This document shows positions 7,038 to 34,632 of a stretch of DNA of 50,252 bases, in pieces. This DNA is from a virus: the IMG/VR virus record IMGVR_UViG_3300025138_000064, positions 1-50,252 of that record; one strand, written 5' to 3'. A program made the position numbers and the translations under genes. Below the pieces are notes generated by a model that saw only the letters and a list, made by a program, of their open reading frames with translations, was not told the DNA's origin and did not search any database. Each line of letters starts with the position of its first letter. The first letter of the stretch is position 1.

Positions 7038-7054
7038 TAAATAATTATTTTACA

Positions 7055-7069
7055 ATATTTATAACTAAA
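7055..7069 (+). promoter_or_regulatory. Late-type promoter motif 1 (ATATTTATAACTAAA)
   Basis: Copy of the recurrent structural-gene motif with one change (CT for CA). It begins 23 bp upstream of the ATG at 7078 and heads the fibre operon (7078-22501). Confidence 0.6.
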
Positions 7070-7077
7070 ATAGAAAT

Positions 7078-9750
7078 ATGTCGATAATTTTAAGACAAAA
7101 TAAAGGATCTGAATTAACATTTGCTGAAGTAGATGATAATTTTCAGTCTCTATTTTACTCAGGTTCCTTAATAGGAACTGATTTAGTTTTTTATTACCCT
7201 AGTAGCAGTTTATCACAATCATTTGATTTATCCTCAATCCCAGGATTTGGTGGAGTAACAGTTCAAGATGGTGGAACTACTATAGTTAATTCAGCAACTG
7301 GGTTAAACTTTACAGGAACAGGAGTTACAGTAACTGCTAATGGGCAAACAGCTACAGTTGATATATCTGGTGGTGGTGGTGGTGGAGGTGATACTTATAC
7401 TTTATCAGCAGGAGCCAAATCAGGAACAAGTGTTCCTTTAAATTTAGATGCAGCTGCAGGATCAGATTCTGTAGTTAGCTTAACAGAAGGAACAGGCATT
7501 ACTCTTACTCAAAATTCAGCAAATGAAATAACTATTGATTCTAGTGGTACAGGTGGAATTTTTGCTCAAACAGGATCTTTTTATGCTACTACTAATAACT
7601 TACAAATAACATCAAGTGGAGCATATCAATCATCAACTTACCCGGGTGGTGTAACAGCAAATCCAAATAATGATGGTAGCGGGGGTAATATAGCTAAATA
7701 TTCATCAATGTTTTCTCAATCTATTTGGCATTATACAGATAATGTAGGTTATCCAACTTCTAAAGCATGGAAAACTGATTTAGCAGGATCTGTTTTTAAT
7801 AGATATGATCAAAATACTGATACAGCAGAAATTATAAGATTTATAGCAACTCAATTAAGTGCTTCATCTCCAGATACTGTTCCTAATACAAGGATTTATG
7901 CAGGTATATCTGAAGATATACGAAATAGTACAACAGAAGTAGCACCAGTAGGAACTGTACCTTCAACTATTGGTAATAGTGTTGTAACTTATTTAAATGG
8001 TCAGGGATTTGCAGGATCAGGTCAAGCTTTATTTGAAGGAGTAGCAACTAGAAAAGAATCTAATGCTTCGTATTTTATTCAATATGATTCAGTAGCAAGT
8101 GGAACAACAGTAGTTACGTCATCTGCTGATGCTGAATTATTTAACTTAGGAGCTATTGGAGTTGTATTTAATGTATCAGGAACAGAAAGAAGAACTTATT
8201 CTGATAATTTTGCACAAACCCAAACAGCTGCTACGGCTTCAACAGCAATTTATACTCAAACAGGGCCTGGAACATCTGCTGATGGTTTAACTATAGGAGA
8301 TATTGATGGAGGATCACAACCAGATACTTTTCAAGATGGAAAATTTGTAGATGTATTAGATACAGCATTATATAATGGGGGAATTTCTTTAACAGCTCAA
8401 GAATCTACAGGACTATATACTATAGCAGCATCTATTGGTATACAATCAGGTTCATCTGTTTTTACAGATGCTAATGCTTCTTCTGCTTATACAAAAACAG
8501 AATCTTTATTTTTTCTACCTAGTGCAGTAACAGGTATACCAAATAATACATTAGCTCAAGGTTTCTTTGGATATGCAATTTCAACAGCTGCAGGAGCTTG
8601 TGTTACACGTTCATTATCATCTGCTCCATATTTACAAGAAGCAAAATGGTCAAATTCAGGATCTGTAACAGGATTATTTGATCCTTTATTTACAGAAACA
8701 CAATATATTTCAAGACTAGATGAAGATAATTCATTTGTAACATTAACAGCTGGTGCTGTTGGTGTTGATTTTAGAGCCTCATGTGTAGGGGGAACTGTAG
8801 ATGGTTCTAATACAATTTTTGATTCAACGGGGACTAGTGCAAGAGCAATAGGAACAGTTCCTCAGTTTAATGATATTTCAAAGTTAGCAGGTTTATTATC
8901 ATTTGATTGTACTACTTCTAATACAGCAACTAATATTACAGAAACTTCTATTAGCCCTACAACATATGGTACTACTTTAAAAGGTAGACTTAGAACAACT
9001 AATGAAATTACAGTAACAACAATAAATGTTCCATTTCATACAGCAGGAGATTTTGGTAAAGCTTCTCAAATGGCTTATTATGGTGCGGGTCAAACATTTG
9101 ATGCTGGATCAGAAACAGGAACTTCAGAAAATTTTTCAGGAGAAAGCTTTAGAGTACAAATTACAAACAATGCATTAATAGGAACTTATACAGGAGCAGA
9201 TTCATGGCCAACAGCATTTAGTTTAGCTGCTTTAGGGGGAAAAGATTTACAAGTAAAACCGGGTTATTTAGTATTCCCAGGAGGATCAAGAGGATATTTT
9301 ATTTCAGATCCAGATTCAGGTCAAGATTATAAATACTATTTAAGAGCATTTAAAAGAAGTTCATCAAGTGCTGCTACAAGTATGGTAGTAAATGTAGGAA
9401 AAAGTAATTTAGTAAATTGGAATACAACTACTAATGGGATATCAGTAGCTATTATATTTGAAAGTGGTGGTAGTGGAAATCAATCTCCACCTAGAATTTA
9501 TGATATAGCTAATTTACTCCAAAACGTTGTAGAAACTGGAATTGCAAATGATGATTTTAAAAATCCATTTAGTACTAATATAGATCTTTATGGAAATACG
9601 GGTGGTGGTTTAAGTGGAACTAATTATACTGTACCTTTGAGAGGAGCTGACGCAATGCAGTTGGATGCTACTAACCAAGGTTATATAGTTATGATACGAT
9701 ATAAAAATGATACAGACCCCGTTGAGGATATTAATATAACAATAAGTTAA
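7078..9750 (+). CDS. Putative tail fibre / virion adhesin
   Basis: An 890-residue protein. The N-terminus (ILRQNKGSELTFAEVDDNF) is the short attachment segment seen at the start of many tail-fibre proteins of T4-type marine phages. It is followed by a Gly run (GGGGGGGD, near residue 100) and a long beta-rich, Ser/Thr/Gly/Ala-rich region without enzyme motifs. I see no C-terminal chaperone domain. It lies 2 nt upstream of the giant collagen-like fibre gene and is likely co-transcribed with it. Probably a tail fibre or fibre-base component; a receptor is not predictable. Confidence 0.65.
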   Translation: MSIILRQNKGSELTFAEVDDNFQSLFYSGSLIGTDLVFYYPSSSLSQSFDLSSIPGFGGVTVQDGGTTIVNSATGLNFTGTGVTVTANGQTATVDISGGGGGGGDTYTLSAGAKSGTSVPLNLDAAAGSDSVVSLTEGTGITLTQNSANEITIDSSGTGGIFAQTGSFYATTNNLQITSSGAYQSSTYPGGVTANPNNDGSGGNIAKYSSMFSQSIWHYTDNVGYPTSKAWKTDLAGSVFNRYDQNTDTAEIIRFIATQLSASSPDTVPNTRIYAGISEDIRNSTTEVAPVGTVPSTIGNSVVTYLNGQGFAGSGQALFEGVATRKESNASYFIQYDSVASGTTVVTSSADAELFNLGAIGVVFNVSGTERRTYSDNFAQTQTAATASTAIYTQTGPGTSADGLTIGDIDGGSQPDTFQDGKFVDVLDTALYNGGISLTAQESTGLYTIAASIGIQSGSSVFTDANASSAYTKTESLFFLPSAVTGIPNNTLAQGFFGYAISTAAGACVTRSLSSAPYLQEAKWSNSGSVTGLFDPLFTETQYISRLDEDNSFVTLTAGAVGVDFRASCVGGTVDGSNTIFDSTGTSARAIGTVPQFNDISKLAGLLSFDCTTSNTATNITETSISPTTYGTTLKGRLRTTNEITVTTINVPFHTAGDFGKASQMAYYGAGQTFDAGSETGTSENFSGESFRVQITNNALIGTYTGADSWPTAFSLAALGGKDLQVKPGYLVFPGGSRGYFISDPDSGQDYKYYLRAFKRSSSSAATSMVVNVGKSNLVNWNTTTNGISVAIIFESGGSGNQSPPRIYDIANLLQNVVETGIANDDFKNPFSTNIDLYGNTGGGLSGTNYTVPLRGADAMQLDATNQGYIVMIRYKNDTDPVEDINITIS

Positions 9751-9752
9751 TA

Positions 9753-12700
9753 ATGGCATTAGATAAAACAAAAAAGTCGAATAGACTACTAGAAAGTAGA
9801 AGGTATACTCATGAAACTTTAGAAAATAATCAAGAAGCATTTACAAGTGTCCTTGATATAAATTCTACAGAGGTATACTCACAGACTAATTTGATTTATG
9901 CCACTGCATTACCTTATAGTGCATCAGGTCAAACTTTAGATGTTTATTATTCTGGTAGTAGTGCAACATATCCAACAGGAAACCCAAGCGGCGATCCTAT
10001 TGCTTTATATTATAATAGACAACGACTTACACCATCTAACGTAGTTAATGGTAGTAAAACTGAAGTATGGTTTTTTGTTTCTTCATCTACAGATCCAAAT
10101 ACACCAGGAACAGCAATTGATCCTCAACTACTAAATGCTAATCAACAAGGTAAATTTATATCACCAAAATATTCAGATGTTTCTTTAGCAAATGCTTTTG
10201 CAGATGATGCTACTCCTGGATATAATGTAACAGTTGAAGTTTCAACAAATAGTGGTGTTGATTGGACAAGACAAAATGCAGCAAATTATCAATTTGATTA
10301 TAGAATGGGTGTTATACAGTTTACTACACAAGCAGTAGCACCATCATCAACAGATTATTTAGCAGTAAGTATTTATCAATATATAGGAAAAACAGTAGCT
10401 GATAGTGGTGGAAGTGGATCATCAGGTTCATCAGGTACTTCAGGTTCATCAGGATCTAGTGGTACATCAGGTAGCTCAGGCTCATCAGGTACAAGTGGTT
10501 CATCAGGATCATCAGGTACTTCAGGTAGCTCAGGTTCATCAGGTACAAGTGGTTCAAGTGGTTCAAGCGGTACATCAGGATCGAGTGGTTCAAGTGGTAC
10601 TTCAGGTTCATCAGGTTCATCAGGAACATCAGGATCATCAGGGTCTAGTGGCACATCAGGATCTTCAGGATCTAGTGGTACATCAGGTTCTTCAGGTTCA
10701 TCAGGTATTTCAGGTTCATCAGGTTCATCAGGAACAAGTGGCTCAAGTGGCTCAAGTGGTTCAAGCGGTTCATCAGGTATTTCAGGTAGCTCAGGATCAT
10801 CAGGTACTTCAGGTAGCTCAGGATCAAGTGGTACTTCAGGTTCATCAGGTTCATCAGGAATAAGTGGTTCATCAGGATCTAGTGGTACATCAGGTTCATC
10901 AGGATCTAGTGGTACAAGTGGTTCAAGTGGTTCATCAGGAACATCAGGTTCAAGTGGTTCATCAGGAACAAGTGGTTCATCAGGATCATCAGGTACTTCA
11001 GGATCAAGTGGATCTAGTGGCACATCAGGTTCTTCAGGTTCATCAGGTATTTCAGGTTCATCAGGTTCATCAGGAACAAGTGGTACAAGTGGTTCAAGCG
11101 GTTCATCAGGTACTTCAGGTAGCTCAGGTTCATCAGGTACTTCAGGTAGTTCAGGATCTAGTGGTACTTCAGGTTCATCAGGTTCATCAGGAACAAGTGG
11201 TTCATCAGGATCTAGTGGTACAAGTGGTTCAAGTGGTTCATCAGGAACAAGTGGTTCAAGTGGTTCAAGTGGTACTTCAGGTTCATCAGGTTCATCAGGA
11301 ACAAGTGGGTCGTCAGGATCAAGTGGTATAAGTGGTTCAAGTGGTTCATCAGGAATAAGCGGTTCAAGTGGTTCAAGTGGTACAAATGGTTCATCAGGAT
11401 CATCAGGTACAAGTGGTTCATCAGGATCATCAGGTACATCAGGTAGCTCAGGATCAAGTGGTATTTCAGGTTCAAGTGGATCATCAGGAACTTCAGGTTC
11501 ATCAGGTTCATCAGGTACAAGCGGTTCATCAGGTTCAAGTGGTACAAGTGGTTCATCAGGATCTAGTGGTACATCAGGATCAAGTGGTTCATCAGGTACA
11601 TCAGGTTCAAGTGGTTCAAGTGGTACATCAGGTTCTTCAGGATCAAGTGGTACATCAGGATCAAGTGGTTCATCAGGTACTTCAGGAAGTTCAGGTTCAT
11701 CAGGTACAAATGGTTCTAATGGGTTATTTGGTGGTATTCCATATAGTTTTAGTACTACAGTAGGTGGTAATACTGCAATAGGAACAATAAGACTTAATAA
11801 TGCAGATGCAGAATTAACAACTCAAGTTATTATTAATAATGAAGATGCAGAAACTGGTGAGCAAGAATCATATTTAGCAACTTTTGATGATGCTGGATTT
11901 ACTAATAATAGAGGTTATTTAGTAATACAAGAAGCAGATGGTGGTGGAGCAAGTTCTCAAGATTTTGCAACATTTATAATAAAATCTATTGCTAGTACAG
12001 CAAATAGTCAACATACATTTGATGTTACTTATGTAGCAGCAACAAATTCAGGAACAGGTAATCCACCGTTTACGGATGCCGATAAAATAGTAATTGCTTT
12101 TTCAGCAACAGGTGTAGCAGGTTCATCAGGATCAAGTGGTACTTCAGGGTCTTCAGGATCAAGTGGTACAAGTGGTTCAAGTGGTTCTTCAGGTACATCA
12201 GGTTCATCAGGTTCATCAGGTACATCAGGTAGCTCAGGTTCATCAGGTACATCAGGTAGCTCAGGTTCATCAGGTACTTCAGGTTCAAGTGGTTCAAGTG
12301 GTACTTCAGGTTCTTCAGGTTCATCAGGTACATCAGGTAGCTCAGGTTCATCAGGTACAAGTGGTTCAAGTGGTTCATCAGGTACAAGTGGTTCATCAGG
12401 TTCAAGTGGTACATCAGGTTCTTCAGGTTCATCAGGAACATCAGGTTCAAGTGGATCATCAGGAACTTCAGGTTCATCAGGTTCAAGTGGTACAAGTGGT
12501 TCATCAGGATCATCAGGTACATCAGGTAGCTCAGGTTCATCAGGTACAAGTGGTTCAAGTGGTTCAAGTGGTACATCAGGTTCTTCAGGTTCATCAGGTA
12601 CTTCAGGATCAAGTGGTTCATCAGGTACTTCAGGCAGCTCAGGTTCATCAGGTACAAATGGTTTAGCGGGTAATTGCGGTAGAAACACGTATACAACATC

Positions 12701-15700
12701 GGGTTCACCATCAGCAGGGCAAGTATCGTTTAGAGATAGTTCTGCTGATCCTACGACAGATGCTGATGAAGTAACTAGATTAACATTTAATAGTACATCT
12801 TCTACATTCTTATTACTTAAAAACTTAGTTATTGGGGATCCAATAACAATAACAGATGACGATGGAGTAGTTGCAAACTATTCATGGCAAGGTAATCCTT
12901 CATCAACTCAGATAGCAGTAACTTATGTAGCGGCAGGATCCGGTACTTGGACTGCAGTTAATCAAGGTGATCCATTTACAATATGCGCTTTTGTTTCATC
13001 AGGATCTTCAGGTTCATCAGGTACAAGTGGTTCAAGTGGTTCATCAGGTACAAGTGGTTCAAGTGGTTCAAGTGGAACAAGCGGTTCATCAGGATCTAGT
13101 GGTACATCAGGTAGCTCAGGTTCAAGTGGTACAAGTGGTTCTTCAGGATCATCAGGTACTTCAGGATCTTCAGGTTCATCAGGTACAAGCGGTTCATCAG
13201 GATCTAGTGGTACATCAGGTAGCTCAGGTTCAAGTGGTACAAGTGGTTCTTCAGGATCATCAGGTACTTCAGGATCTTCAGGTTCATCAGGCACAAGTGG
13301 TTCATCAGGATCTAGTGGTACATCAGGTAGCTCAGGTTCAAGTGGTACAAGTGGTTCTTCAGGATCATCAGGTACTTCAGGATCTTCAGGTTCATCAGGT
13401 ACAAGCGGTTCATCAGGATCTAGTGGAACAAGTGGTTCATCAGGATCTAGTGGTACTTCAGGGTCATCAGGTTCATCAGGAACATCAGGTTCAAGTGGTT
13501 CATCAGGTACTTCAGGATCAAGTGGATCTTCAGGTACAAATGGTGATAGAGGAGGAGTTGAATACGAATATTTTTCATCACCTTTAGTAGACCCAGGAGA
13601 ACTTAATTATTCAACAGGAACATCACAAATTGTACTTAATAAAACTGATGTTAATGGTAATGATCAAAGTAATTGGATAAACAGTTGGAATGATCAAGGA
13701 AATTCAACTACAGGAATAGGTAGATTAACAGTACAAGAAGCAGGAAGTGGTAATGAAATATTAGCAGTAACACTAGCAGCACAAGTAACATTATCAGGAA
13801 ATGTTTATACATTTTCAACGGTATCAGGAACTTTAATAAATACAGGATTTTCGGCAAGTGATAGATTAGTTGTAAGTTTTGCGGCTTATGGTGATTCAGG
13901 TTCAAGCGGATCATCAGGAACAAGTGGTTCATCAGGATCATCAGGTACTTCAGGTTCTTCAGGATCGTCAGGAACAAGTGGTTCATCAGGATCAAGTGGT
14001 ACATCAGGTAGCTCAGGTTCATCAGGTACAAGTGGCTCAAGTGGCTCAAGTGGTACAAGTGGTTCATCAGGATCAAGTGGTACTTCAGGTTCAAGTGGAT
14101 CATCAGGAACTTCAGGTTCTTCAGGTTCATCAGGTACAAGCGGTTCATCAGGATCAAGTGGAACAAGTGGTTCATCAGGATCTAGTGGTACATCAGGATC
14201 AAGTGGTTCATCAGGTACTTCAGGTTCAAGTGGTTCAAGTGGTACTTCAGGATCAAGTGGATCTTCAGGTACATCAGGATCATCAGGATCTAGTGGTACA
14301 TCAGGATCAAGTGGTTCTTCAGGTACTAGTGGTTCTTCAGGATCTAGTGGTACATCAGGATCAAGTGGATCATCAGGTACTTCAGGTTCTTCAGGTTCAT
14401 CAGGTACAACAGGATTAACAGGAAATTGTATTAGTAATACTTTTACAACATCTGGTTCGCCATCAGCAGGTCAAGTATCATTTAGAAATAATTCTTCAGA
14501 CCCAACAACAGATGGAGATGAAGTAACTAGATTAACATTTAACAGTTCTACAGCACCTGGATTTCTATTACTTAAAAACTTAGTTGTTGGAGACCCTATA
14601 ACGATAACAGATGCTGATGGAATTGTCAACAATTATTCATGGGGTGGTAATCCTTCATCAACTCAAATAGCAGTAACTTATGTATCAGCTGGGTCTGGTA
14701 CTTGGACTTCAATTAACCAAGGCGATCCATTTGTAATATGCGCTTTTGTTTCATCAGGTTCTTCAGGTTCATCAGGAACTTCAGGTTCAAGTGGTTCATC
14801 AGGTACATCAGGATCTTCAGGTTCATCAGGTACAAGTGGTTCTTCGGGATCTTCAGGTACAAGTGGTTCAAGTGGTTCAAGTGGAACAAGCGGTTCATCA
14901 GGATCATCAGGTACATCAGGTTCAAGTGGATCTTCAGGTACTTCAGGTTCAAGTGGATCATCAGGAACTTCAGGTTCATCAGGTTCATCAGGTACAAGTG
15001 GTACAAGTGGCTCAAGTGGTTCAAGTGGTACAAGTGGTTCATCAGGATCAAGTGGTACTTCAGGTTCAAGTGGATCATCAGGAACTTCAGGTTCTTCAGG
15101 TTCATCAGGAACATCAGGTAGCTCAGGTTCATCAGGAACAAGTGGTTCAAGTGGTTCATCAGGTACTTCAGGATCTTCAGGTTCATCAGGTACAAGCGGT
15201 TCATCAGGATCAAGTGGAACAAGTGGTTCATCAGGATCTAGTGGTACATCAGGATCAAGTGGTTCATCAGGTACATCAGGTAGCTCAGGTTCATCAGGTA
15301 CAAGTGGTTCAAGTGGTTCAAGTGGTACTTCAGGTTCAAGTGGATCATCAGGTACATCAGGTTCAAGTGGTTCATCAGGTACAACAGGATTAACAGGAAA
15401 CTGTAATAGAAACACGTATACAACATCGGGTTCACCTTCAACAGCTACACAAGTATCATTTAGAAATAGTTCTGCTGATCCTACGACAGACGCTGATGAA
15501 GTAACTAGATTAACATTTAACAGTTCCACATCACCTGGGTTTTTATTACTTAAAAATCTAGTTGTTGGAGATCCAATAACAATAACAGATGACGACGGGA
15601 TTGTTGCAAATTATTCATGGGGTGGTAACCCTTCATCAAATCAAATAGCAGTAACTTATGTATCAGCTGGATCAGGTACTTGGACTTCAGTTAACCAGGG

Positions 15701-18700
15701 TGATCCATTTATAATATGTGCTTTTGTTTCATCAGGTTCTTCAGGTTCATCAGGAACTTCAGGTTCAAGTGGATCTTCAGGTACTTCAGGTTCAAGTGGT
15801 TCATCAGGAACATCAGGTTCTTCAGGTTCATCAGGAACTTCAGGATCTTCAGGTTCATCAGGTACAAGTGGTTCAAGTGGTTCATCAGGTACAAGCGGTT
15901 CATCAGGATCAAGTGGAACAAGTGGTTCATCAGGATCTAGTGGCACATCAGGATCAAGTGGTTCATCAGGAACATCAGGTTCTTCAGGTTCATCAGGTAC
16001 AAATGGCTCAAGTGGTTCAAGTGGTACAAGTGGTACAAGTGGTTCATCAGGATCAAGTGGTACATCAGGTTCATCAGGATCAAGTGGTACAAGTGGTTCA
16101 AGTGGTTCATCAGGAACAAGTGGTTCAAGTGGTTCAAGTGGTACAAGTGGTTCATCAGGATCAAGTGGTACATCAGGTTCATCAGGATCAAGTGGTACAT
16201 CAGGATCAAGTGGTTCAAGTGGTACATCAGGATCATCAGGATCTAGTGGTACATCAGGATCAAGTGGTTCATCAGGTACAAGTGGTTCAAGTGGTTCAAG
16301 TGGTACTTCAGGATCAAGTGGGTCATCAGGTACTTCAGGTTCAAGTGGTTCATCAGGTACATCGGGATTAACTGGAAATTGTGATAGAAACACGTATACA
16401 ACATCAGGTTCACCATCAGCAGGGCAAGTATCATTTAGAGATAGTTCTGCTGATCCTACACAAACCGCTGCTAATGTTACTAGATTAACATTTAATAGTT
16501 CTACAGCATCTGGGTTTTTATTACTTAAAAATTTAGTTGTTGGAGATCCTGTAACAATAACAGATGATGATGGAGTAGTTGCAAACTATTCATGGGGCGG
16601 TAATCCTGCATCAAACCAAATAGCAGTAACTTACGTATCAGCTGGATCGGGTGTTTGGACTGCTACTAGTCAAGGTGATCCATTTGTAATATGTGGTTTT
16701 ATTTCATCAGGTTCTTCAGGTTCATCAGGAACTTCAGGTTCTTCAGGATCAAGTGGTACTTCAGGTTCAAGTGGTTCATCAGGAACATCAGGTTCTTCAG
16801 GTTCATCAGGAACTTCAGGATCTTCAGGTTCATCAGGTACAAGTGGTTCAAGTGGTTCATCAGGTACAAGCGGTTCATCAGGATCATCAGGTACATCAGG
16901 TTCTTCAGGATCAAGTGGTACTTCAGGTTCAAGTGGATCATCAGGAACATCAGGTTCTTCAGGTTCATCAGGTACAAATGGCTCAAGTGGTTCAAGTGGT
17001 ACAAGTGGTTCATCAGGATCAAGTGGTACATCAGGATCTTCAGGATCAAGTGGTACAAGTGGTTCAAGTGGTTCATCAGGAACAAGTGGTTCAAGTGGTT
17101 CATCAGGAACAAGTGGTTCAAGTGGTTCATCAGGTACAAGTGGTTCATCAGGATCTAGTGGTACATCAGGATCAAGTGGTTCATCAGGTACTTCAGGTTC
17201 AAGTGGTTCATCAGGTACATCAGGATCTTCAGGATCAAGTGGTACTTCAGGTTCTTCAGGATCATCAGGTACATCAGGTTCAAGTGGATCTTCAGGTACA
17301 TCGGGTGATAGAGGAGGAGTAAAATATCAATTTGTCACAACAGTTAATTCAGATGGAGAATTTAATTATAATGGTTCAAATACTGTTCAATTTAATAGAG
17401 ATGATGTAAATGGTGTTGACCAAGGAACATGGTTAAATTCATGGAATGATACAGGTGATAGTACAAATGGATTTGGTGTACTTACAGTTCAAAGTGCTGA
17501 TAGTGGAAATAATGTATTAGTTGCTATAGTAACAGCTGTAAATAATTCAATAGGATTATATTTTCAAGCTACTGTTACAGAATTAACATATGATGCTTTC
17601 CAATTAAATGAACAAGTTGTTGTATCATTTGCCCAATTTGGTAATTCAGGTAGCTCAGGTTCATCAGGTACATCAGGATCTTCAGGTTCATCAGGTACTT
17701 CAGGATCAAGTGGATCTTCAGGTACAAGTGGTTCATCAGGATCTAGTGGTACTTCAGGTAGTTCAGGATCAAGTGGTACTTCAGGATCTTCAGGTTCATC
17801 AGGTACTTCAGGATCAAGTGGATCTTCAGGTACAAGTGGTTCATCAGGATCTAGTGGTACATCAGGTTCATCAGGATCATCAGGTACTTCAGGTAGTTCA
17901 GGTTCATCAGGTACAAGTGGTTCAAGTGGTTCAAGTGGTACAAGTGGTTCTTCAGGATCATCAGGTACATCAGGAACAAGTGGTTCATCAGGATCATCAG
18001 GTACTTCAGGTAGTTCAGGTTCATCAGGAACATCAGGTTCAAGTGGTTCAAGTGGTACAAGTGGTTCTTCAGGATCAAGTGGTACTTCAGGATCAAGTGG
18101 TTCTAGTGGTACTTCAGGTTCATCAGGATCAAGTGGAACAAGTGGTTCATCAGGATCAAGTGGAACAAGCGGTTCATCAGGATCAAGTGGAACAAGCGGT
18201 TCATCAGGATCAAGTGGAACAAGTGGTTCATCAGGATCTAGTGGTACATCAGGATCAAGTGGTTCATCAGGTACTTCAGGTTCAAGTGGTTCAAGTGGTA
18301 CAAGTGGTTCTTCAGGATCATCAGGTACATCAGGGTCAAGTGGTTCTAGTGGTACAAGGGGTGAATATGGTGGTGTTCCTTACACATTTAGTAATACAAC
18401 TTCTTCTACAGGAATATCACAAGGGCAAATAAGATTTAATAATGGTACATTAGGAAGTGTTAATACAATCTTTATAAATAATGAAGATAGAAATGGGGTT
18501 AATGTAAGTGCATGGTTAAATACTTATTCAACAGCTGGTATATTCTATGTTAAATCAGCAAATGGTGCAGATGCATCAGTTGGATTATTTACAGTAACAT
18601 CTAGAAGTGTTGGTGCTTCATTTACCACAATAGCAGTATCAAGTCCTTCAGGACAAACATTTGCAAATGGAGAAGAAATAAGTGTAATATTTGCACCAAA

Positions 18701-20174
18701 AGGTAATAATGGTGAATCAGGTTCATCAGGTTCTTCAGGTACTTCAGGTAGTTCAGGTTCATCAGGTACAAGTGGTTCAAGTGGTTCAAGTGGTACTTCA
18801 GGTTCAAGTGGATCATCAGGTACTTCAGGTAGCTCAGGATCTAGTGGTACATCAGGATCTTCAGGATCAAGTGGTACTTCAGGATCAAGTGGTTCAAGTG
18901 GTACTTCAGGTTCTTCAGGATCAAGTGGATCTTCAGGTTCATCAGGTACTTCAGGATCTTCAGGTTCATCAGGTACTTCAGGATCAAGTGGATCTTCAGG
19001 TACAAGTGGTTCATCAGGATCAAGTGGAACAAGCGGTTCATCAGGATCAAGTGGAACAAGCGGTTCATCAGGATCAAGTGGAACAAGTGGTTCATCAGGA
19101 TCTAGTGGTACATCAGGTTCATCAGGATCTAGTGGTACATCAGGTTCATCAGGATCTAGTGGTACATCAGGTTCAAGTGGATCTTCAGGTTCATCAGGTT
19201 CTTCAGGTACTTCAGGATCTTCAGGTTCATCAGGTACAAGTGGTTCAAGTGGTTCAAGTGGTACAAGTGGTTCATCAGGATCATCAGGTACATCAGGTAG
19301 CTCAGGTTCATCAGGTACAAGTGGCTCAAGTGGCTCAAGTGGTACAAGTGGTTCATCAGGATCATCAGGTACATCAGGTTCATCAGGATCTAGTGGTACA
19401 TCAGGATCTTCAGGTTCATCAGGTACTTCAGGATCAAGTGGATCTTCAGGTACAAGTGGTTCATCAGGATCTAGTGGTACATCAGGTTCATCAGGATCTA
19501 GTGGTACATCAGGTTCAAGTGGATCTTCAGGTACAAGTGGTTCATCAGGATCATCAGGTACTTCAGGATCAAGTGGATCTTCAGGTACAAGTGGTTCATC
19601 AGGATCTAGTGGTACATCAGGTTCATCAGGATCATCAGGTACTTCAGGTAGTTCAGGTTCATCAGGTACAAGTGGAGCTACAGGACCTGTAGGAGGATCA
19701 AATACCCAAGTATTATATAATAATAGTGGAGCAGCAGCAGGATCATCTGATATGACATTTTCGAATGGAAGTGGAATCTTAACTGTTGAAAGGCTAAATG
19801 TAGGATTAAGTGCTGGAACTAATAGTACTGATGGTTTAATTAGAGCTGAAAATGATATAATAGCATTTGCAACTTCAGATAGAAGATTAAAAACTAATAT
19901 ATTAACTATACCAAATGCTTTAGAAAAGGTAAGTATGTTAAATGGTGTTAATTTTGATTGGTTAGAATTTGAAGCTAATAAAACACAAGCTATACATGCT
20001 AATGAGGGACATGATATAGGTATTATAGCCCAAGAAGTTGAAGCTATATTCCCAGAATTAGTTACAACAAGAACTAATGGATATAAAGCAGTAAAATATG
20101 ATAAATTAGTAGCTGTATTAATTGAAGCCATTAAGGAATTAAAATCAGAAATTGATGAATTAAAAAAGAAATAA
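9753..20174 (+). CDS. Giant collagen-like tail fibre with S74 self-cleaving chaperone
   Basis: A 3,473-residue protein. An N-terminal globular region (residues 1-221) is followed by nine blocks of Gly-X-Y triplets, mostly (GSS)(GSS)(GTS), totalling roughly 2,190 residues (63%). They alternate with eight globular modules of about 110-127 residues in two families (order B, A, B, A, A, A, B, B). The blocks contain no proline. Residues 3375-3473 are a peptidase S74 / intramolecular chaperone domain: Ser3375 and Lys3380 in SDRRLKTN form the self-cleavage dyad, and the end is the coiled coil IKELKSEIDELKKK. S74 domains trimerise fibres and are then released. Gly at every third residue is the collagen pattern and implies a triple helix; without proline its stability would need another source. 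The neighbouring glycosyltransferase (22554) is a candidate modifier. The reading frame is intact over 10.4 kb, which supports a functional gene. Confidence 0.9.
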   Translation: MALDKTKKSNRLLESRRYTHETLENNQEAFTSVLDINSTEVYSQTNLIYATALPYSASGQTLDVYYSGSSATYPTGNPSGDPIALYYNRQRLTPSNVVNGSKTEVWFFVSSSTDPNTPGTAIDPQLLNANQQGKFISPKYSDVSLANAFADDATPGYNVTVEVSTNSGVDWTRQNAANYQFDYRMGVIQFTTQAVAPSSTDYLAVSIYQYIGKTVADSGGSGSSGSSGTSGSSGSSGTSGSSGSSGTSGSSGSSGTSGSSGSSGTSGSSGSSGTSGSSGSSGTSGSSGSSGTSGSSGSSGTSGSSGSSGTSGSSGSSGISGSSGSSGTSGSSGSSGSSGSSGISGSSGSSGTSGSSGSSGTSGSSGSSGISGSSGSSGTSGSSGSSGTSGSSGSSGTSGSSGSSGTSGSSGSSGTSGSSGSSGTSGSSGSSGISGSSGSSGTSGTSGSSGSSGTSGSSGSSGTSGSSGSSGTSGSSGSSGTSGSSGSSGTSGSSGSSGTSGSSGSSGTSGSSGSSGTSGSSGSSGISGSSGSSGISGSSGSSGTNGSSGSSGTSGSSGSSGTSGSSGSSGISGSSGSSGTSGSSGSSGTSGSSGSSGTSGSSGSSGTSGSSGSSGTSGSSGSSGTSGSSGSSGTSGSSGSSGTSGSSGSSGTNGSNGLFGGIPYSFSTTVGGNTAIGTIRLNNADAELTTQVIINNEDAETGEQESYLATFDDAGFTNNRGYLVIQEADGGGASSQDFATFIIKSIASTANSQHTFDVTYVAATNSGTGNPPFTDADKIVIAFSATGVAGSSGSSGTSGSSGSSGTSGSSGSSGTSGSSGSSGTSGSSGSSGTSGSSGSSGTSGSSGSSGTSGSSGSSGTSGSSGSSGTSGSSGSSGTSGSSGSSGTSGSSGSSGTSGSSGSSGTSGSSGSSGTSGSSGSSGTSGSSGSSGTSGSSGSSGTSGSSGSSGTSGSSGSSGTSGSSGSSGTNGLAGNCGRNTYTTSGSPSAGQVSFRDSSADPTTDADEVTRLTFNSTSSTFLLLKNLVIGDPITITDDDGVVANYSWQGNPSSTQIAVTYVAAGSGTWTAVNQGDPFTICAFVSSGSSGSSGTSGSSGSSGTSGSSGSSGTSGSSGSSGTSGSSGSSGTSGSSGSSGTSGSSGSSGTSGSSGSSGTSGSSGSSGTSGSSGSSGTSGSSGSSGTSGSSGSSGTSGSSGSSGTSGSSGSSGTSGSSGSSGTSGSSGSSGTSGSSGSSGTSGSSGSSGTSGSSGSSGTSGSSGSSGTNGDRGGVEYEYFSSPLVDPGELNYSTGTSQIVLNKTDVNGNDQSNWINSWNDQGNSTTGIGRLTVQEAGSGNEILAVTLAAQVTLSGNVYTFSTVSGTLINTGFSASDRLVVSFAAYGDSGSSGSSGTSGSSGSSGTSGSSGSSGTSGSSGSSGTSGSSGSSGTSGSSGSSGTSGSSGSSGTSGSSGSSGTSGSSGSSGTSGSSGSSGTSGSSGSSGTSGSSGSSGTSGSSGSSGTSGSSGSSGTSGSSGSSGTSGSSGSSGTSGSSGSSGTSGSSGSSGTSGSSGSSGTTGLTGNCISNTFTTSGSPSAGQVSFRNNSSDPTTDGDEVTRLTFNSSTAPGFLLLKNLVVGDPITITDADGIVNNYSWGGNPSSTQIAVTYVSAGSGTWTSINQGDPFVICAFVSSGSSGSSGTSGSSGSSGTSGSSGSSGTSGSSGSSGTSGSSGSSGTSGSSGSSGTSGSSGSSGTSGSSGSSGTSGSSGSSGTSGTSGSSGSSGTSGSSGSSGTSGSSGSSGTSGSSGSSGTSGSSGSSGTSGSSGSSGTSGSSGSSGTSGSSGSSGTSGSSGSSGTSGSSGSSGTSGSSGSSGTSGSSGSSGTSGSSGSSGTSGSSGSSGTTGLTGNCNRNTYTTSGSPSTATQVSFRNSSADPTTDADEVTRLTFNSSTSPGFLLLKNLVVGDPITITDDDGIVANYSWGGNPSSNQIAVTYVSAGSGTWTSVNQGDPFIICAFVSSGSSGSSGTSGSSGSSGTSGSSGSSGTSGSSGSSGTSGSSGSSGTSGSSGSSGTSGSSGSSGTSGSSGSSGTSGSSGSSGTSGSSGSSGTNGSSGSSGTSGTSGSSGSSGTSGSSGSSGTSGSSGSSGTSGSSGSSGTSGSSGSSGTSGSSGSSGTSGSSGSSGTSGSSGSSGTSGSSGSSGTSGSSGSSGTSGSSGSSGTSGSSGSSGTSGLTGNCDRNTYTTSGSPSAGQVSFRDSSADPTQTAANVTRLTFNSSTASGFLLLKNLVVGDPVTITDDDGVVANYSWGGNPASNQIAVTYVSAGSGVWTATSQGDPFVICGFISSGSSGSSGTSGSSGSSGTSGSSGSSGTSGSSGSSGTSGSSGSSGTSGSSGSSGTSGSSGSSGTSGSSGSSGTSGSSGSSGTSGSSGSSGTNGSSGSSGTSGSSGSSGTSGSSGSSGTSGSSGSSGTSGSSGSSGTSGSSGSSGTSGSSGSSGTSGSSGSSGTSGSSGSSGTSGSSGSSGTSGSSGSSGTSGSSGSSGTSGDRGGVKYQFVTTVNSDGEFNYNGSNTVQFNRDDVNGVDQGTWLNSWNDTGDSTNGFGVLTVQSADSGNNVLVAIVTAVNNSIGLYFQATVTELTYDAFQLNEQVVVSFAQFGNSGSSGSSGTSGSSGSSGTSGSSGSSGTSGSSGSSGTSGSSGSSGTSGSSGSSGTSGSSGSSGTSGSSGSSGTSGSSGSSGTSGSSGSSGTSGSSGSSGTSGSSGSSGTSGTSGSSGSSGTSGSSGSSGTSGSSGSSGTSGSSGSSGTSGSSGSSGTSGSSGSSGTSGSSGSSGTSGSSGSSGTSGSSGSSGTSGSSGSSGTSGSSGSSGTSGSSGSSGTSGSSGSSGTSGSSGSSGTRGEYGGVPYTFSNTTSSTGISQGQIRFNNGTLGSVNTIFINNEDRNGVNVSAWLNTYSTAGIFYVKSANGADASVGLFTVTSRSVGASFTTIAVSSPSGQTFANGEEISVIFAPKGNNGESGSSGSSGTSGSSGSSGTSGSSGSSGTSGSSGSSGTSGSSGSSGTSGSSGSSGTSGSSGSSGTSGSSGSSGSSGSSGTSGSSGSSGTSGSSGSSGTSGSSGSSGTSGSSGSSGTSGSSGSSGTSGSSGSSGTSGSSGSSGTSGSSGSSGTSGSSGSSGSSGSSGTSGSSGSSGTSGSSGSSGTSGSSGSSGTSGSSGSSGTSGSSGSSGTSGSSGSSGTSGSSGSSGTSGSSGSSGTSGSSGSSGTSGSSGSSGTSGSSGSSGTSGSSGSSGTSGSSGSSGTSGSSGSSGTSGSSGSSGTSGSSGSSGTSGSSGSSGTSGATGPVGGSNTQVLYNNSGAAAGSSDMTFSNGSGILTVERLNVGLSAGTNSTDGLIRAENDIIAFATSDRRLKTNILTIPNALEKVSMLNGVNFDWLEFEANKTQAIHANEGHDIGIIAQEVEAIFPELVTTRTNGYKAVKYDKLVAVLIEAIKELKSEIDELKKK
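12672..16709 (+). other. Module family A in the giant fibre (four copies)
   Basis: Four closely similar modules of about 110 residues lie at roughly 12672-13001, 14424-14756, 15399-15734 and 16377-16709. Each begins just after GN with a Cys (NCxRNTYTTSGSPS), contains LTFNSS, LLLKNLVVGDPITITDDDG and NYSWGGNPSS, and ends DPFxICAFVSSG with a second Cys. The paired cysteines at the entry and exit could form a disulfide or staple the trimer; this is inference. The strong similarity, including at the DNA level, shows recent duplication. The fold is unknown. Confidence 0.85.
13083..13406 (+). repeat. Three tandem copies of a 108-nt higher-order repeat
   Basis: Within repeat block 3 the DNA itself repeats with a period of 108 nt (four 27-nt units): 13083-13190, 13191-13298 and 13299-13406. 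The copies share the same synonymous codon pattern (for example GGTAGCTCAGGTTCAAGT), with only single-base differences such as ACAAGC/ACAAGT. A fourth copy starts at 13407 and diverges within 30 nt. This marks a recent duplication on top of the older diverged array. Confidence 0.9.
18117..18224 (+). repeat. Four near-perfect 27-nt tandem units (block 8)
   Basis: Units 18117-18143, 18144-18170, 18171-18197 and 18198-18224 are identical except for AGT/AGC at the last codon. The same unit recurs three times at 19008-19088 in block 9, pointing to recent exchange or copying between blocks. Confidence 0.9.
19008..19088 (+). repeat. Three near-perfect 27-nt tandem units (block 9)
   Basis: Units 19008-19034, 19035-19061 and 19062-19088 are the same 27-nt unit as at 18117-18224, including the AGC/AGT variation. 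They are likely products of recent slippage or inter-block recombination. Confidence 0.9.
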
Positions 20175-20177: not shown

Positions 20178-21938
20178 ATGGCTATACCTTCAAATTTAAA
20201 ATTTCAGGAAATAATTGCGGGAATTAAGCATTTTTACTCAGGGAGTGAATCATATCAAGATCCTATCATGGGTAATATGTCTAATATAACAGGATATTGT
20301 GCTAGTTTACCTCCACAGTTTTTTCAAAATACTAATGTTCTCCATGCAGATAATTTAGGTCCATTTTTTTATAATGCTGATGGTACAGCATATGCTAATA
20401 GTGATGCACCTTGTAGATATATGAGGGTTGCTGAACATAATTTAGGAGATATAAATAATATGTTTTTTTGTGCTTTTGCTGGTAATTATACTGTAAGAAC
20501 CTGGAATAATAGTACTTCAGTATATAAAAATGGAAGTTTAGTTTCAACTCCAGCAACAGCAGGAGATACTGTTTCTATAGCTTCATTAGCAGTAGGTGAT
20601 AGAATAGAATTTTCTAAACCTTGCTCATTTTATTTCAATAATGTTGAAGGATTAACAGGTGCTTATGGAGGATATGCTGGTTATTGTTTTGGTTTTAGAA
20701 ATGATAGACAATCAGCTGCTGCTGATCCAAATAGGATTGAAATGTTTGTTATAGATAATAGCGTTGGTCAAGGTCCTGGGGATAATGGTGTAGAATTAGG
20801 TTATACTACTACAGATGATTCAAATGTAACAACAATTACACTTCAATTTAATGAAGCATGGGAGCAAACATATCAAAATTATGGAGATGATTTATCAATA
20901 ACTAGAAACTATGTAGCCCAATCTTCAAGATTAATGTGTTGTTGGAGAGGTAGAGCTACATCTGAAGCTATATATGATGCTTTTCCAATATATCCTATGA
21001 CTACTGAACCTAAATATGGTTGGTATTCACAAGGAGGACATATAATAGCAGCAGCAGGTCCTTATCAAAAAAGAGACGGTTCTAGTACTGGTTATCAAGT
21101 ACAAACACGTACAAATACTACTACTACAAATGAATTTACTGCTACAACAAATGTTGCTGAATGGTTTAGGGGTGATAAAAATACTGGGGCTAATTCAACT
21201 TCCTTTTTTGCAGGTACACCTGCTGTAACTTTTATAGAAGGAGGGGTTAATAGTTCTACAGGTGCAGGACCTATATTTGGTGCAGAATCACAAGGTGATG
21301 GTAATGGAACTGAAATGACATCTCATGTAGGTGAAGCTGCTATGGCAAAATTTACAGTTATTCCGGCTTCAGCTGATTGGGCTGCTTTTATAGCTACAAT
21401 TTCAACAGGTAAAGGAGTAGTTATGAGATTTAATTCAAGTAATACTTGGCAAGAAACTAGACAAATTGATTCTTTTCCTAATACATCTGCTTATAAATTT
21501 GTATGCACTCGTTTTACTAGTACATCAGCTAATGATTCGTTTTGGGCTACAGTCCCTGTTCAGGGTTATTCAGATGTAAATTCAACACAAGATGATGAAT
21601 CTAATTTAATAATGGGCGATGATACAGACTTTTTTACAGCTTCTTCTCGTACTTTAACCTATGATGGTGATATTACAGGTGGTGGTATGGAAGAACAAGA
21701 ACAAGCTTGTGGTGAACAAGGGAACCCTACTACTATGACAGTTTATAAACCCCAAACTGGTAATCCTCAGGTAGGGCATGTATATTTTTCTGATTCAGAA
21801 ATGACTGTACCAATTGAAACCATTAATGGTGGGGATGTTGGAAATTATTATTATAAAATTACAAATGGAAGAAGTAACTTTTCTGTTAGATTTGCTAGTC
21901 CATCTTGTGGAATGATTGATGAAGTTGACGCGTGTTAG
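20178..21938 (+). CDS. Putative fibre-associated virion protein
   Basis: A 586-residue protein of unknown family, 3 nt after the giant fibre gene. It is rich in aromatic residues, Asn, Gly and Thr, with scattered Cys (TGYCASLP, DAPCRYM, AGYCFGF, RLMCCWRG and a C-terminal pair near SCGMIDEVDAC). No signal peptide, membrane segment or catalytic motif is visible. The last 90 residues begin a separate-looking module after EEQEQACGEQGNPT. Its position suggests a fibre tip, receptor-binding protein or fibre-assembly factor. The downstream methyltransferase start overlaps its stop by 7 nt, so the two are translationally coupled. Confidence 0.5.
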   Translation: MAIPSNLKFQEIIAGIKHFYSGSESYQDPIMGNMSNITGYCASLPPQFFQNTNVLHADNLGPFFYNADGTAYANSDAPCRYMRVAEHNLGDINNMFFCAFAGNYTVRTWNNSTSVYKNGSLVSTPATAGDTVSIASLAVGDRIEFSKPCSFYFNNVEGLTGAYGGYAGYCFGFRNDRQSAAADPNRIEMFVIDNSVGQGPGDNGVELGYTTTDDSNVTTITLQFNEAWEQTYQNYGDDLSITRNYVAQSSRLMCCWRGRATSEAIYDAFPIYPMTTEPKYGWYSQGGHIIAAAGPYQKRDGSSTGYQVQTRTNTTTTNEFTATTNVAEWFRGDKNTGANSTSFFAGTPAVTFIEGGVNSSTGAGPIFGAESQGDGNGTEMTSHVGEAAMAKFTVIPASADWAAFIATISTGKGVVMRFNSSNTWQETRQIDSFPNTSAYKFVCTRFTSTSANDSFWATVPVQGYSDVNSTQDDESNLIMGDDTDFFTASSRTLTYDGDITGGGMEEQEQACGEQGNPTTMTVYKPQTGNPQVGHVYFSDSEMTVPIETINGGDVGNYYYKITNGRSNFSVRFASPSCGMIDEVDAC

Positions 21939-22501
21939 AAAATTACACCTTTTTAGAAGATAAACTTCTAGATAAAAACGGAAGAGAGATTATGATGAAG
22001 TGGGAAACTTCATTAATGGAGGAACATGCTAAAGTAGTTACAGAAAATGGAGGGGATATTCTAGAAATAGGATTTGGAATGGGAATATGTTCTAATTTTA
22101 TTCAACAAGCTAATATTAAATCTCATACCATAATTGAAATACATGATGAAGTTTTTACAAAATTATTAGAATGGGCTAAAGATAAACCTAATGTAATTCC
22201 TATAAAAGGTGATTGGTTTGATGTAATTCCTAAAGATAAAAAATATAATGGTATTATGCATGATACGTGGATGGAAGAAAACTTCCATCATTTTTTTTCA
22301 AAAATACAAAATTCATTAAAACCTAAAGGAATAGTTACTTGGTATAATTCTGAAACTGATATTTCATTAAAACATAATTGTAATAATCTTAAATGGGGTA
22401 ATTTATCATTAAAAAAAATTAAAGTAAATCCTCCTATTAAAAATATGAAATATAAATATTATGATAGAAATATTTATTTTGTGCCAAAATTAGCTATTTA
22501 A
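21932..22501 (+). CDS. SAM-dependent methyltransferase resembling guanidinoacetate N-methyltransferase
   Basis: A 189-residue class I methyltransferase. SAM motif I is ILEIGFGMGI (43-52), with IIEIHDEVF (67-75) for the SAM ribose and IKGDWFDV (91-98) after it. The segment IMMKWETSLMEEHA and GGDILEIGFGMGI closely parallel vertebrate guanidinoacetate methyltransferase (VMERWETPYM... then LEVGFGMAI), and HDTWMEEN matches its YDTYP region. Glu25 and Asp111 align with the guanidino-binding Glu and Asp of that family, so a guanidino substrate (guanidinoacetate, or an arginine as in yeast Rmt2) is plausible. The start is GTG at 21932, overlapping the previous stop; an ATG at 21991 would remove residues aligned with the family. 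It ends the fibre operon. Its partner might be the amidinotransferase at 541 or a virion protein. Confidence 0.75.
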   Translation: MLENYTFLEDKLLDKNGREIMMKWETSLMEEHAKVVTENGGDILEIGFGMGICSNFIQQANIKSHTIIEIHDEVFTKLLEWAKDKPNVIPIKGDWFDVIPKDKKYNGIMHDTWMEENFHHFFSKIQNSLKPKGIVTWYNSETDISLKHNCNNLKWGNLSLKKIKVNPPIKNMKYKYYDRNIYFVPKLAI

Positions 22502-22502: not shown

Positions 22503-22531
22503 TTGGATTATTAATTAATTTATAGTATATT
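22503..22531 (+). promoter_or_regulatory. Putative early/middle promoter (TTGGAT-17-TATATT)
   Basis: TTGGAT (22503-22508) and TATATT (22526-22531) are separated by 17 bp, identical to the sites at 479 and 42026. The spacer also shares GGATTATTAA with the polymerase site. It lies in the 52-bp gap before the glycosyltransferase, separating it from the late fibre operon. Confidence 0.65.
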
Positions 22532-22553: not shown

Positions 22554-24656
22554 ATGTCTAAACTATTAATTATATGTCCCCATTTATCAACTGGGGGAGC
22601 ACCTCAATATTGCTTAGATTATTTAAAACATCATAAACAAGAATATTCTGAAATTAAACTCATAGAATTTACAGAATTTTCATCGGAATATGTTATACAA
22701 AAAAATAAAATAATTCAACTTTTAGGAGAAGAAAATGTATTTACTTTAGGTGAATATCATTCAAAAACTTTTAATAAAGATAAAGAAAAATTAATTCCTA
22801 TTGTAGAAAATTATTCACCTGATGTTATTTGGATGAATGAAATGCCAGAAGCTTATGAATATAAATTACCACCAAACACAGTTATGGATTTTCTTTATTC
22901 TCTTAAAAGAAAACATAAAATAATAGAAACAACTCACTTTAATGCATTCGATTTTTCTACAAAAACATTTATACCTGATGAATTTCTTTTTTGTTCTCCT
23001 AAACATATAAATGAATCTAAACATTTAAATGTTCCTAAAAAAGTTTGGCAAACTCCAATTGAAAATAATATAAGACCTAATAGAGAAGATACATTAAAAA
23101 ATTTAAATCTAGATCCATCTAAATATCATATATTAAATGTTGGGTTAATTAATAGTAATAAAAACCAAAAATATATTTTTGATCTAGCAGAAAAAACTCA
23201 AAATTTACCAATAGAATATCATTTTATAGGCAATCATTGTTTTATTGAAGATACAGGTATTTCAGATACTCAAAAATCTTTAGCTAACTGTAAATTATGG
23301 GGTGAAAAAGATAATGTAAATCAATTTATGTCTTGTATGGATTTATATTTATTCCCATCTTTAAAAGAATTAAATCCATTAACTGTAAAAGAAGCATTAT
23401 CATGGGATATGGATGTAGTAGCTAATTATGATGAAAATTATACAGATCAATATAAAGATTATAAAAATTTTAATGTAATTCAAGAAATAGATGTAGAAAA
23501 TTTTATTAAATCTAAAATATTATGTCCTGAATTTTTAGTTAGTTTTATAAATGGTCCTAAAATAGAAATAATAGATCCTAACTCAAACAATGAATATTTA
23601 ATAAAATTTATTGATAATAAGACTCACCATAACCATTATGAGACTATTTTAAAAGGAGGTTATTGGGGAGCTTCGGATTTAAAATATTTTATAGATTGGA
23701 AAATTGAAGTTTATAATAATAATAATAAAATTTACGAACATAATTATAATGCTAAAAATAAAAAAATACTTATCAATTTTGATAGTAAGGCAATAGGTGA
23801 TACTTTAGCATGGTTTCCTTATGTTGAAGAATTTAGAAAAAAACATCAATGCAAAGTTGTAGTATCAACTTTTCACAATAGTTGGTTTAAAAACAAATAC
23901 CCAGATATAGATTTTGTAAAACCTGGAGAAATTGTACATAATTTATATGCACAATATAATATAGGTTGGTTTTATAATAATGATGATAGTATAAATTATA
24001 AAAAAGTACCTATTAATTTTAGATTAAATGTTTTAGGAAAAACTTGTTCTAGTACTTTAGGATTAGAATATAAAGAATTAAAACCTTTATTATCATTTAA
24101 TAAAACTTCTCCTATAATAAAAGATCCTTATATTTGCATAGCACCACACGCATCAGCATTAGCAAAATATTGGAATTATTCTAATGGATGGCAAGAATTA
24201 ATAGATTATTTTAATTCTAAAGGATATAAAGTAATGATGATAACAGGTGAACCTTTAGGGGATGATTGGCATGATTCTAAATTAGGAGGAAAATTAAAAA
24301 ACGTAATTGATAGAACAGGAAAAATACCATTTGGTGATATAGCAAATGATTTAATGAATGCTAAAGCTTTTATAGGAGTAAGTAGTGGGTTAAGTTGGTT
24401 AAGTTGGGCATTAGGGTGTAATACTACAATCATATCAGGGTTTACACAACCTTTAACTGAAATGGAAGATTGTAATAGAATTTCAACACCTTTATCTGAA
24501 ATATGTAATGGATGTTTTAGTTATAATAAATTAGATGCTGGGGATTGGGAGTGGTGTCCTGAACATAAAGATACATTTAGACAATTTGAATGTACTAAAT
24601 CCATCCTCCCTTCTACAGTAATTGAGTCACTAAATCAACAATTAAAAATTTCTTGA
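22554..24656 (+). CDS. Fused glycosyltransferase: GT4-like N-terminus + BAHT-type (GT9) protein O-heptosyltransferase-like C-terminus
   Basis: A 700-residue protein with two GT-B units. The N-terminal unit (about 1-320) has HLSTGGAPQ near the start, LNVGLINSNKNQ, and an E-x7-E motif (ELNPLTVKE) typical of retaining GT4 enzymes. After a beta-rich linker (FINGPKIEIID and KYFIDWKIEVYN) the C-terminal unit (about 400-700) shows ILINFDSKAIGDTLAWFPYV, CIAPHASALAKYWNY, NGWQELIDYF and FIGVSSGLSWLSWALG. These and the linker match the bacterial autotransporter O-heptosyltransferase family (TibC/Aah type). Four cysteines, Cys651, Cys654, Cys668 and Cys680 (CX2C-X13-C-X11-C), fit the family's iron-finger. 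Such enzymes O-glycosylate Ser/Thr of repeat-rich surface proteins in the cytoplasm. The adjacent Ser/Thr-rich fibre is the obvious candidate acceptor. It has its own promoter; the sugar donor is unknown. Confidence 0.82.
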   Translation: MSKLLIICPHLSTGGAPQYCLDYLKHHKQEYSEIKLIEFTEFSSEYVIQKNKIIQLLGEENVFTLGEYHSKTFNKDKEKLIPIVENYSPDVIWMNEMPEAYEYKLPPNTVMDFLYSLKRKHKIIETTHFNAFDFSTKTFIPDEFLFCSPKHINESKHLNVPKKVWQTPIENNIRPNREDTLKNLNLDPSKYHILNVGLINSNKNQKYIFDLAEKTQNLPIEYHFIGNHCFIEDTGISDTQKSLANCKLWGEKDNVNQFMSCMDLYLFPSLKELNPLTVKEALSWDMDVVANYDENYTDQYKDYKNFNVIQEIDVENFIKSKILCPEFLVSFINGPKIEIIDPNSNNEYLIKFIDNKTHHNHYETILKGGYWGASDLKYFIDWKIEVYNNNNKIYEHNYNAKNKKILINFDSKAIGDTLAWFPYVEEFRKKHQCKVVVSTFHNSWFKNKYPDIDFVKPGEIVHNLYAQYNIGWFYNNDDSINYKKVPINFRLNVLGKTCSSTLGLEYKELKPLLSFNKTSPIIKDPYICIAPHASALAKYWNYSNGWQELIDYFNSKGYKVMMITGEPLGDDWHDSKLGGKLKNVIDRTGKIPFGDIANDLMNAKAFIGVSSGLSWLSWALGCNTTIISGFTQPLTEMEDCNRISTPLSEICNGCFSYNKLDAGDWEWCPEHKDTFRQFECTKSILPSTVIESLNQQLKIS

Positions 24657-24670
24657 TATTTATAACAAAA
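24656..24670 (+). promoter_or_regulatory. Late-type promoter motif 1 (ATATTTATAACAAAA)
   Basis: An exact motif copy that overlaps the last base of the glycosyltransferase stop codon and begins 30 bp upstream of the fibre gene at 24686. Confidence 0.6.
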
Positions 24671-26777: not shown

Positions 26778-26792
26778 ATATTTATCATAAAA
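26778..26792 (+). promoter_or_regulatory. Late-type motif 1 variant (ATATTTATCATAAAA)
   Basis: One or two differences from the consensus, beginning 25 bp upstream of the tail sheath ATG. It is preceded by TTTAGT, as at the 479 site (TTTAGTATATTTAT), but no TTGGAT box lies 17 bp upstream. Confidence 0.5.
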
Positions 26793-29418: not shown

Positions 29419-29433
29419 AAATTAAAAAATTAG

Positions 29434-29448
29434 ATATTTATAATAAAA
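29434..29448 (+). promoter_or_regulatory. Late-type promoter motif 1 (ATATTTATAATAAAA)
   Basis: A one-base variant (T for C) of the recurrent motif, beginning 29 bp upstream of the tail tube ATG at 29463. It gives the highly expressed tube gene its own start between the sheath gene and a downstream terminator. Confidence 0.6.
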
Positions 29449-31197: not shown

Positions 31198-31204
31198 TTT
31201 ATTA

Positions 31205-31219
31205 ATATTTATAACAAAA
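31205..31219 (+). promoter_or_regulatory. Late-type promoter motif 1 (ATATTTATAACAAAA)
   Basis: An exact copy, beginning 24 bp upstream of the tape measure ATG at 31229. Confidence 0.6.
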
Positions 31220-34615: not shown

Positions 34616-34617
34616 TG

Positions 34618-34632
34618 ATATTTATAATAAAA
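34618..34632 (+). promoter_or_regulatory. Late-type promoter motif 1 (ATATTTATAATAAAA)
   Basis: Identical to the 29434 copy, 3 bp after the tape measure stop and beginning 34 bp upstream of the ATG at 34652. It heads the baseplate/hub unit (34652-42023). Confidence 0.6.

Follow-up and report, generated by a model that had tools for sequence, protein, structure and literature searches.

The window, that is, the whole 50,252-nt stretch of viral DNA analysed here (IMG/VR record IMGVR_UViG_3300025138_000064), contains at positions 22554–24656 a single uninterrupted open reading frame (ORF) with an ATG start, which codes for a protein of 700 amino acids. The earlier note had placed a fused GT4-type and BAHT-like glycosyltransferase at these coordinates, which proved exact, and profile matches and catalytic residues confirmed that both units are real, intact and directly joined in one chain. 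The features of the locus, with the evidence for each in parentheses, are as follows:

9753–20174, + strand: collagen-like fibre gene, 3473 aa, candidate substrate (739 Gly-X-Y triplets, 96% Ser/Thr at X and Y)
21932–22501, + strand: SAM-methyltransferase-like gene, 189 aa (comparable gene upstream of the GT operon in the loci L006 and L175)
22503–22531, + strand: flavobacterial-type promoter-like element TTG-N20-TATATT, termed early-type (motif match)
22554–24656, + strand: GT4-BAHT fusion gene, 700 aa (ORF, Pfam, NCBIfam, TibC match)
22554–23513, + strand: GT4 unit, GT-B and retaining-type, residues 1–320 (Pfam, HepE fold match, homology to operon heads)
23367–23393, + strand: E-x7-E motif, E272 to E280 (conserved in 46/46 sequences)
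23529–23753, + strand: N-terminal beta-barrel of the BAHT, residues ~324/326–400 (structural alignment with TibC, DSSP strands)
23754–24653, + strand: BAHT (GT9-like) catalytic unit, residues 401–700 (TIGR04414, TibC Z 38.2)
23799–23801, + strand: Asp416, equivalent of the TibC catalytic base Asp110 (alignment)
24339–24341, + strand: Ile596, replacing the adenine-contacting Arg286 of TibC (alignment)
24504–24593, + strand: iron-finger cysteines C651, C654, C668 and C680 (alignment)
24655–24665, + strand: ATATTTATAA element, termed late-type, before the next structural-type gene at 24686 (motif match)

Architecture of the fusion protein

Pfam matches above the cut-off were obtained for residues 177–318 (Glycos_transf_1, 5.6e-7) and 497–624 (Glyco_transf_9), and the NCBIfam family TIGR04414 (hepto_Aah_TibC) covered residues 343–694 with 296.6 bits (cut-off of 200). 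The BAHT half was matched by TibC (4rap, 4rb4) at 3e-52, while PHROGs gave no match for either the fusion protein or the upstream methyltransferase. Domain-wise structure prediction, a check suggested in the earlier note, placed the BAHT half on TibC and the GT4 half on a GT-B fold of the HepE type. The AlphaFold model, computed with 29 window and relative sequences, had a mean pLDDT of 83 and a pTM of 0.62, with values mostly above 90 in the BAHT half and lower ones in the GT4 half. Residues 324–700, barrel included, superposed on residues 21–390 of TibC with a Z score of 38.2 (2.5 Å over 359 residues), and residues 1–327 matched GT4-type GT-B enzymes, for example HepE with a Z score of 17.4. 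The E-x7-E (272–280) and CX2C-X13-C-X11-C motifs were found exactly as previously described, and each unit keeps its catalytic residues when aligned, the loss from both that the earlier note had raised not being seen. The architecture, comprising the fusion, the motifs and the fold of both halves, is secure.

The GT4 half resembles retaining GT4 enzymes such as HepE, PglA, BshA and WaaG with regard to its GT-B fold (Z 15–17), its E-x7-E motif, its glycine-rich N-terminal loop and Lys203; it differs from them by its membership of a phage subfamily in which the motif PHLSTGG is conserved. Residues G14, G15, H128, K203, E272 and E280 are invariant among 46 aligned sequences. The closest GT4 (68%) belongs to a 1009-aa protein (L259, 1551–4580), and it is fused to a BAHT that has kept the catalytic Asp and lost all four iron-finger cysteines. 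A GT4 protein of the PHLSTGG type with 1140 aa was also noted at position 3248 of a 735-kb phage (L083, LR756501), in addition to a separate GT4-BAHT fusion at 6819–9035.

For a residue-by-residue comparison of the BAHT half, 95 viral BAHTs were aligned with TibC. The window BAHT has in common with TibC and AAH (BAHT, TIGR04414) the beta-barrel and GT-B unit, the catalytic Asp, Lys and Trp, and a four-cysteine iron finger, at 30% identity. Asp416, Lys538 and Trp615 (Asp110, Lys230 and Trp305 in TibC) and the four cysteines were present in 95/95 viral BAHTs, although the spacing between the second and third cysteines is X13 in the window protein and X15 in TibC, where these residues are C339, C342, C358 and C370 (PMC4358343). 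Within the donor site, Lys230 and Trp305 correspond to Lys538 and Trp615, Thr226 is conservatively replaced by Ser534, and Arg286 is replaced by Ile596. In TibC, Arg286 contacts the adenine, and the R286A exchange abolished or largely diminished activity (PMC4358343); because this residue is Ile596 here, the donor of the window enzyme may not be ADP-heptose. An arginine at this position was kept in 84 of the 95 viral BAHTs, the exceptions being mainly GT4-fused or GT4-paired proteins. Pro300 of TibC, a stereoselectivity position that is occupied by Ser in AAH (PMC4358343), is Ser in the window protein as well. The donor could plausibly be supplied, an ADP-heptose synthesis gene (TIGR02199) having scored above the cut-off in both Bacteroidota genome bins checked (2/2).

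A further difference concerns oligomerization. In TibC, Phe265 and Val266 on a hydrophobic beta-hairpin thumb build the dodecamer, and the corresponding Asp mutants are dimeric and inactive. The alignment showed a gap at these thumb-tip residues in 95/95 viral sequences, and the AlphaFold model has a helix (571–576) in the thumb region. Since the thumb tip is absent while profile, fold and catalytic residues match, we describe the unit as BAHT-type rather than as a TibC-like dodecameric BAHT; judging from alignment and model, it probably does not form such a dodecamer. The window BAHT also differs from TibC in being phage-borne and fused to a GT4 unit. A partner autotransporter, described as frequent but not universal in BAHT loci, was not identified nearby, the neighbours in the window being fibre, methyltransferase and tail genes. 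The replacement of Arg286 and the missing thumb, together with the cysteine loss in L259, could indicate that catalysis in the BAHT half has been lost or changed and that this half acts as a scaffold or docking partner of an active GT4. We consider this improbable, given that the catalytic base is retained along with Lys538 and Trp615 and that other phage BAHTs, too, vary at the Arg286 position while retaining the remaining residues.

Linked and fused GT4-BAHT enzymes in phages

Relatives of the fusion protein were encoded in 129 viral-contig stretches, the best of them matching over the BAHT unit only, and the 80 loci taken from these stretches carried nearly exclusively standalone BAHT genes of ~400 aa. 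TIGR04414 matches were also found in 17/42 phage records that had been picked by the tail sheath alone. A search with the GT4 unit alone yielded 75 further phage loci, 65 of which contained a BAHT within the fetched flanks; in 18 of these 65 the BAHT was in the same ORF as the GT4, in 47 it was downstream on the same strand, and in none was it elsewhere. The two genes were separated by at most 10 nt, and often overlapped, in 20 of the 47 downstream cases. In five loci (L136, L141, L143, L147 and L148), a GT4 gene of 360 aa overlaps the BAHT gene by 11 nt, and these neighbouring genes are the unfused form of the window gene.

Other phages carry operons made up of separate genes, namely a GT4-GT25-like gene of ~890 aa, a GT4 gene of ~315 aa, an FkbM methyltransferase gene and a BAHT gene of ~400 aa. 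They share with the window the genomic slot, the promoter type and homologous GT4 and BAHT genes, in particular the operon heads, to which the window GT4 unit is homologous (37% identity, 1e-49); in contrast, the window has a single GT4 unit, fused to the BAHT. A carbamoyltransferase gene was observed within one GT-BAHT operon (L048, 6317–7945), and a gene of equal length occupies this position in L051 and L053. The window gene is no isolated case but belongs to an extensive family of phage GT4-BAHT enzymes, either linked or fused. No paper describing BAHT enzymes in phages was found in the literature searched, a search that most subscription literature lay outside.

The fused proteins are diverse. 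GT4-BAHT fusions of 738 aa (L083) and 762 aa (L099, L124) were found, as well as a protein of 1003 aa in which an N-terminal unit of ~310 aa precedes GT4 and BAHT (L173). The order GT4-GT2-FkbM-BAHT occurs in L164 (1321 aa) and L167, and GT4-GT2-BAHT-FkbM in L168; the fusion of L171 has 1549 aa, that of Microcystis phage Mel-JY01 (L082) 1226 aa, and BAHT fusions overall reach 1556 aa. A methyltransferase is fused to the BAHT in L006 and L175. In two further proteins (L111, 2792–6523, 1243 aa; L120, 5026–8772), GT4 and BAHT are followed by a C-terminal PIG-L-type deacetylase unit. The multi-unit phage fusions (L173, L164, L171, L111, L083) thus have GT4 and BAHT in one chain, as in the window, whereas most of them carry additional GT, methyltransferase or deacetylase units, the window protein being the minimal form. 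Phage GT4-BAHT proteins offer a set of natural, putatively multi-enzyme glycosyltransferases with differing module orders.

In a quick tree of 49 BAHT units, whose change counts cannot tell gain from loss, the fused state changed at least eight times, at least five of these changes being forced by supported branches. The window protein was placed beside the standalone BAHTs of L002 and L004, and its nesting among standalone genes therefore points to fusion as a repeated and, in the window, recent event. Four strongly extended BAHT fusions are filed under bacterial genomes (L175, L182, L183 and L195). The neighbouring genes on their contigs look phage-like, and the sequences probably come from phages that were binned with bacteria; hence, no clear chromosomal BAHT fusion was found among the bacterial genome contigs searched, in which a few other copies were moderately extended at the N terminus.

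Genomic slot and promoter-like elements

In close relatives, the slot has the order fibre gene, GT cassette, TNTG-type gene, 84-aa gene and tail sheath gene. The phage BAHT is mostly a gene of its own (~400 aa) in this slot. The nearest isolated phage is Flavobacterium phage immuto (51% identity in the sheath, 52% in the helicase), which did not appear when the phage collection was searched for BAHTs. The host of the virus is probably to be found among the flavobacteria.

Promoter elements were derived by comparing upstream regions within the phage. This approach replaced a scan with the E. coli sigma-70 model, which is unsuited to this phage and showed no excess (60 sites vs. 72 expected). 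The early-type element TTG-N20-TATATT, which is similar to TAnnTTTG, the -7 box of flavobacterial sigma-A (PMC9723704), had five matches in the intergenic DNA of the window compared with 0.10 expected. Four of them lie upstream of genes at 541, 22554 (the fusion gene), 42072 and 45811 (exonuclease); the fifth, at 29981, is inside a terminator-like hairpin and is probably a chance match forming part of the terminator. Among relatives, an element of this type was present at 18/29 heads of GT4 operons (0.8 expected) and in 50/475 other gaps (5.3 expected), where the 40 examples listed mostly belonged to one gene, the one that follows the 29981 hairpin in the window. It also precedes the standalone BAHT gene in the sister phages L002, L004 and L005.

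A second element, ATATTTATAA, precedes seven structural-type genes (2948, 7078, 24686, 26803, 29463, 31229 and 34652) at a spacing of 11–25 nt and is located at 2927–2937, 7054–7064, 24655–24665, 26778–26787, 29433–29443, 31204–31214 and 34617–34627, respectively. It may serve as a late promoter in this group of phages. The T4 late promoter TATAAATA was not enriched. With regard to the promoter of its own that the earlier note had attributed to the fusion gene, a promoter-like element common to early-type, and not to structural, genes is present, whereas early expression is what we infer from it.

The collagen-like fibre as candidate acceptor

BAHTs are known from bacteria, where they hyperglycosylate autotransporter adhesins; TibC hyper-heptosylates serines of repetitive adhesins, and the BAHTs studied so far modify protein hydroxyls (PMC4358343). 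In the phages analysed here BAHTs are widespread, linked or fused to GT4 units and often beside giant fibres rich in Ser/Thr and Gly, which offers a concrete and testable route to O-glycosylated phage fibres. Sequence features and structural models make bifunctional glycosylation by the window protein likely. Our preferred reading, to which we assign a probability of roughly 0.55, is that it builds a short O-glycan on the adjacent collagen-like fibre and is present before this late protein is made. Using a nucleotide donor, and with Asp416 as the base, the C-terminal BAHT unit would attach heptose or a sugar related to it to Ser/Thr hydroxyls, and the N-terminal GT4 unit would add a second sugar with retention; by analogy with TibC, the BAHT would act as initiator and the GT4 as extender. 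The most likely acceptor would be the phage's own Ser/Thr-rich fibre, encoded just upstream, and the host-type promoter would let the enzyme accumulate ahead of it.

The fibre is the best candidate by virtue of its position, its Ser/Thr content and the promoter type of the enzyme gene. The mere presence of a Gly-X-Y protein was uninformative, as such proteins occurred in 33/49 loci with a BAHT and in 9/10 without one (counting loci that have a sheath gene and sufficient DNA upstream), a co-occurrence that was not significant (Fisher p = 0.25). Where a Gly-X-Y protein is encoded, however, the Ser/Thr fraction of the fibre was higher in phages with a BAHT (Mann–Whitney p = 0.0004, uncorrected for relatedness). 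Two observations speak against a strict rule joining fibre and BAHT: the phage with the closest backbone (L085, 87% sheath identity) encodes a Ser/Thr-rich fibre while its 10-kb contig lacks a BAHT, and the BAHT of L136-type phages adjoins the sheath, with no Ser/Thr Gly-X-Y repeats in the sequence examined.

These comparisons also bear on other acceptors. An early-acting enzyme might instead alter the surface of the host, such as its LPS, its capsule or its surface proteins, and thereby exclude rival phages or keep released virions from adhering to debris. The early-type promoter fits this reading at least equally well, a role of this kind has been suggested for the glycosyltransferases that pelagimyophages encode in their host-recognition region (PMC7029224), and phages without a BAHT have comparable fibres. 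Nevertheless, the BAHTs studied act on protein hydroxyls, the gene occupies the slot between fibre and sheath in close relatives, and fibres are richer in Ser/Thr where a BAHT is present, so that we regard host-surface remodelling as rather unlikely. Another virion protein, such as the tail sheath, the tube or the TNTG protein at 24686, might be glycosylated in place of the fibre, as suggested by the arrangement in L136-type phages and by the glycosylated capsid and tail proteins reported for mycobacteriophages (PMC11256854, PMC12619734), whose virion glycosylation (Che8, Rita; PMC11256854) is likewise linked to phage-encoded glycosyltransferases. In the sister phages L004 and L005, however, a lone BAHT gene directly follows the gene of a Ser/Thr-rich Gly-X-Y fibre protein, and we hold a different virion acceptor to be distinctly unlikely. 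Transfer to phage DNA bases, as in T4, is stated for some phage glycosyltransferases (PMC7029224) but is very improbable here, as protein is the substrate of BAHTs, the cassette is genomically tied to fibre genes, and the scan of window genes brought up none recognisable as a base-modification gene.

The joining or adjacency of GT4 and BAHT in many aquatic phages suggests that sugar chains are placed on their own giant Ser/Thr-rich fibres. In a broader version of the fibre reading, which we put forward tentatively and at slightly less than even odds, aquatic phages would carry a modular glycan assembly line around a BAHT initiator, yielding mucin-like fibres with O-glycans on Ser/Thr collagen-like repeats. 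With the same reservation, its units would be GT4, GT2, GT25-like, methyltransferase, carbamoyltransferase and deacetylase modules, encoded as neighbours or fused. Glycosylation of the fibres, if true, would bear on protease resistance, on host recognition and on the glycosyltransferase islands found beside fibre genes.

Elsewhere in the window, a phosphatidylserine decarboxylase-like gene (1455–2174; Pfam, 7e-24) was observed beside phoH.
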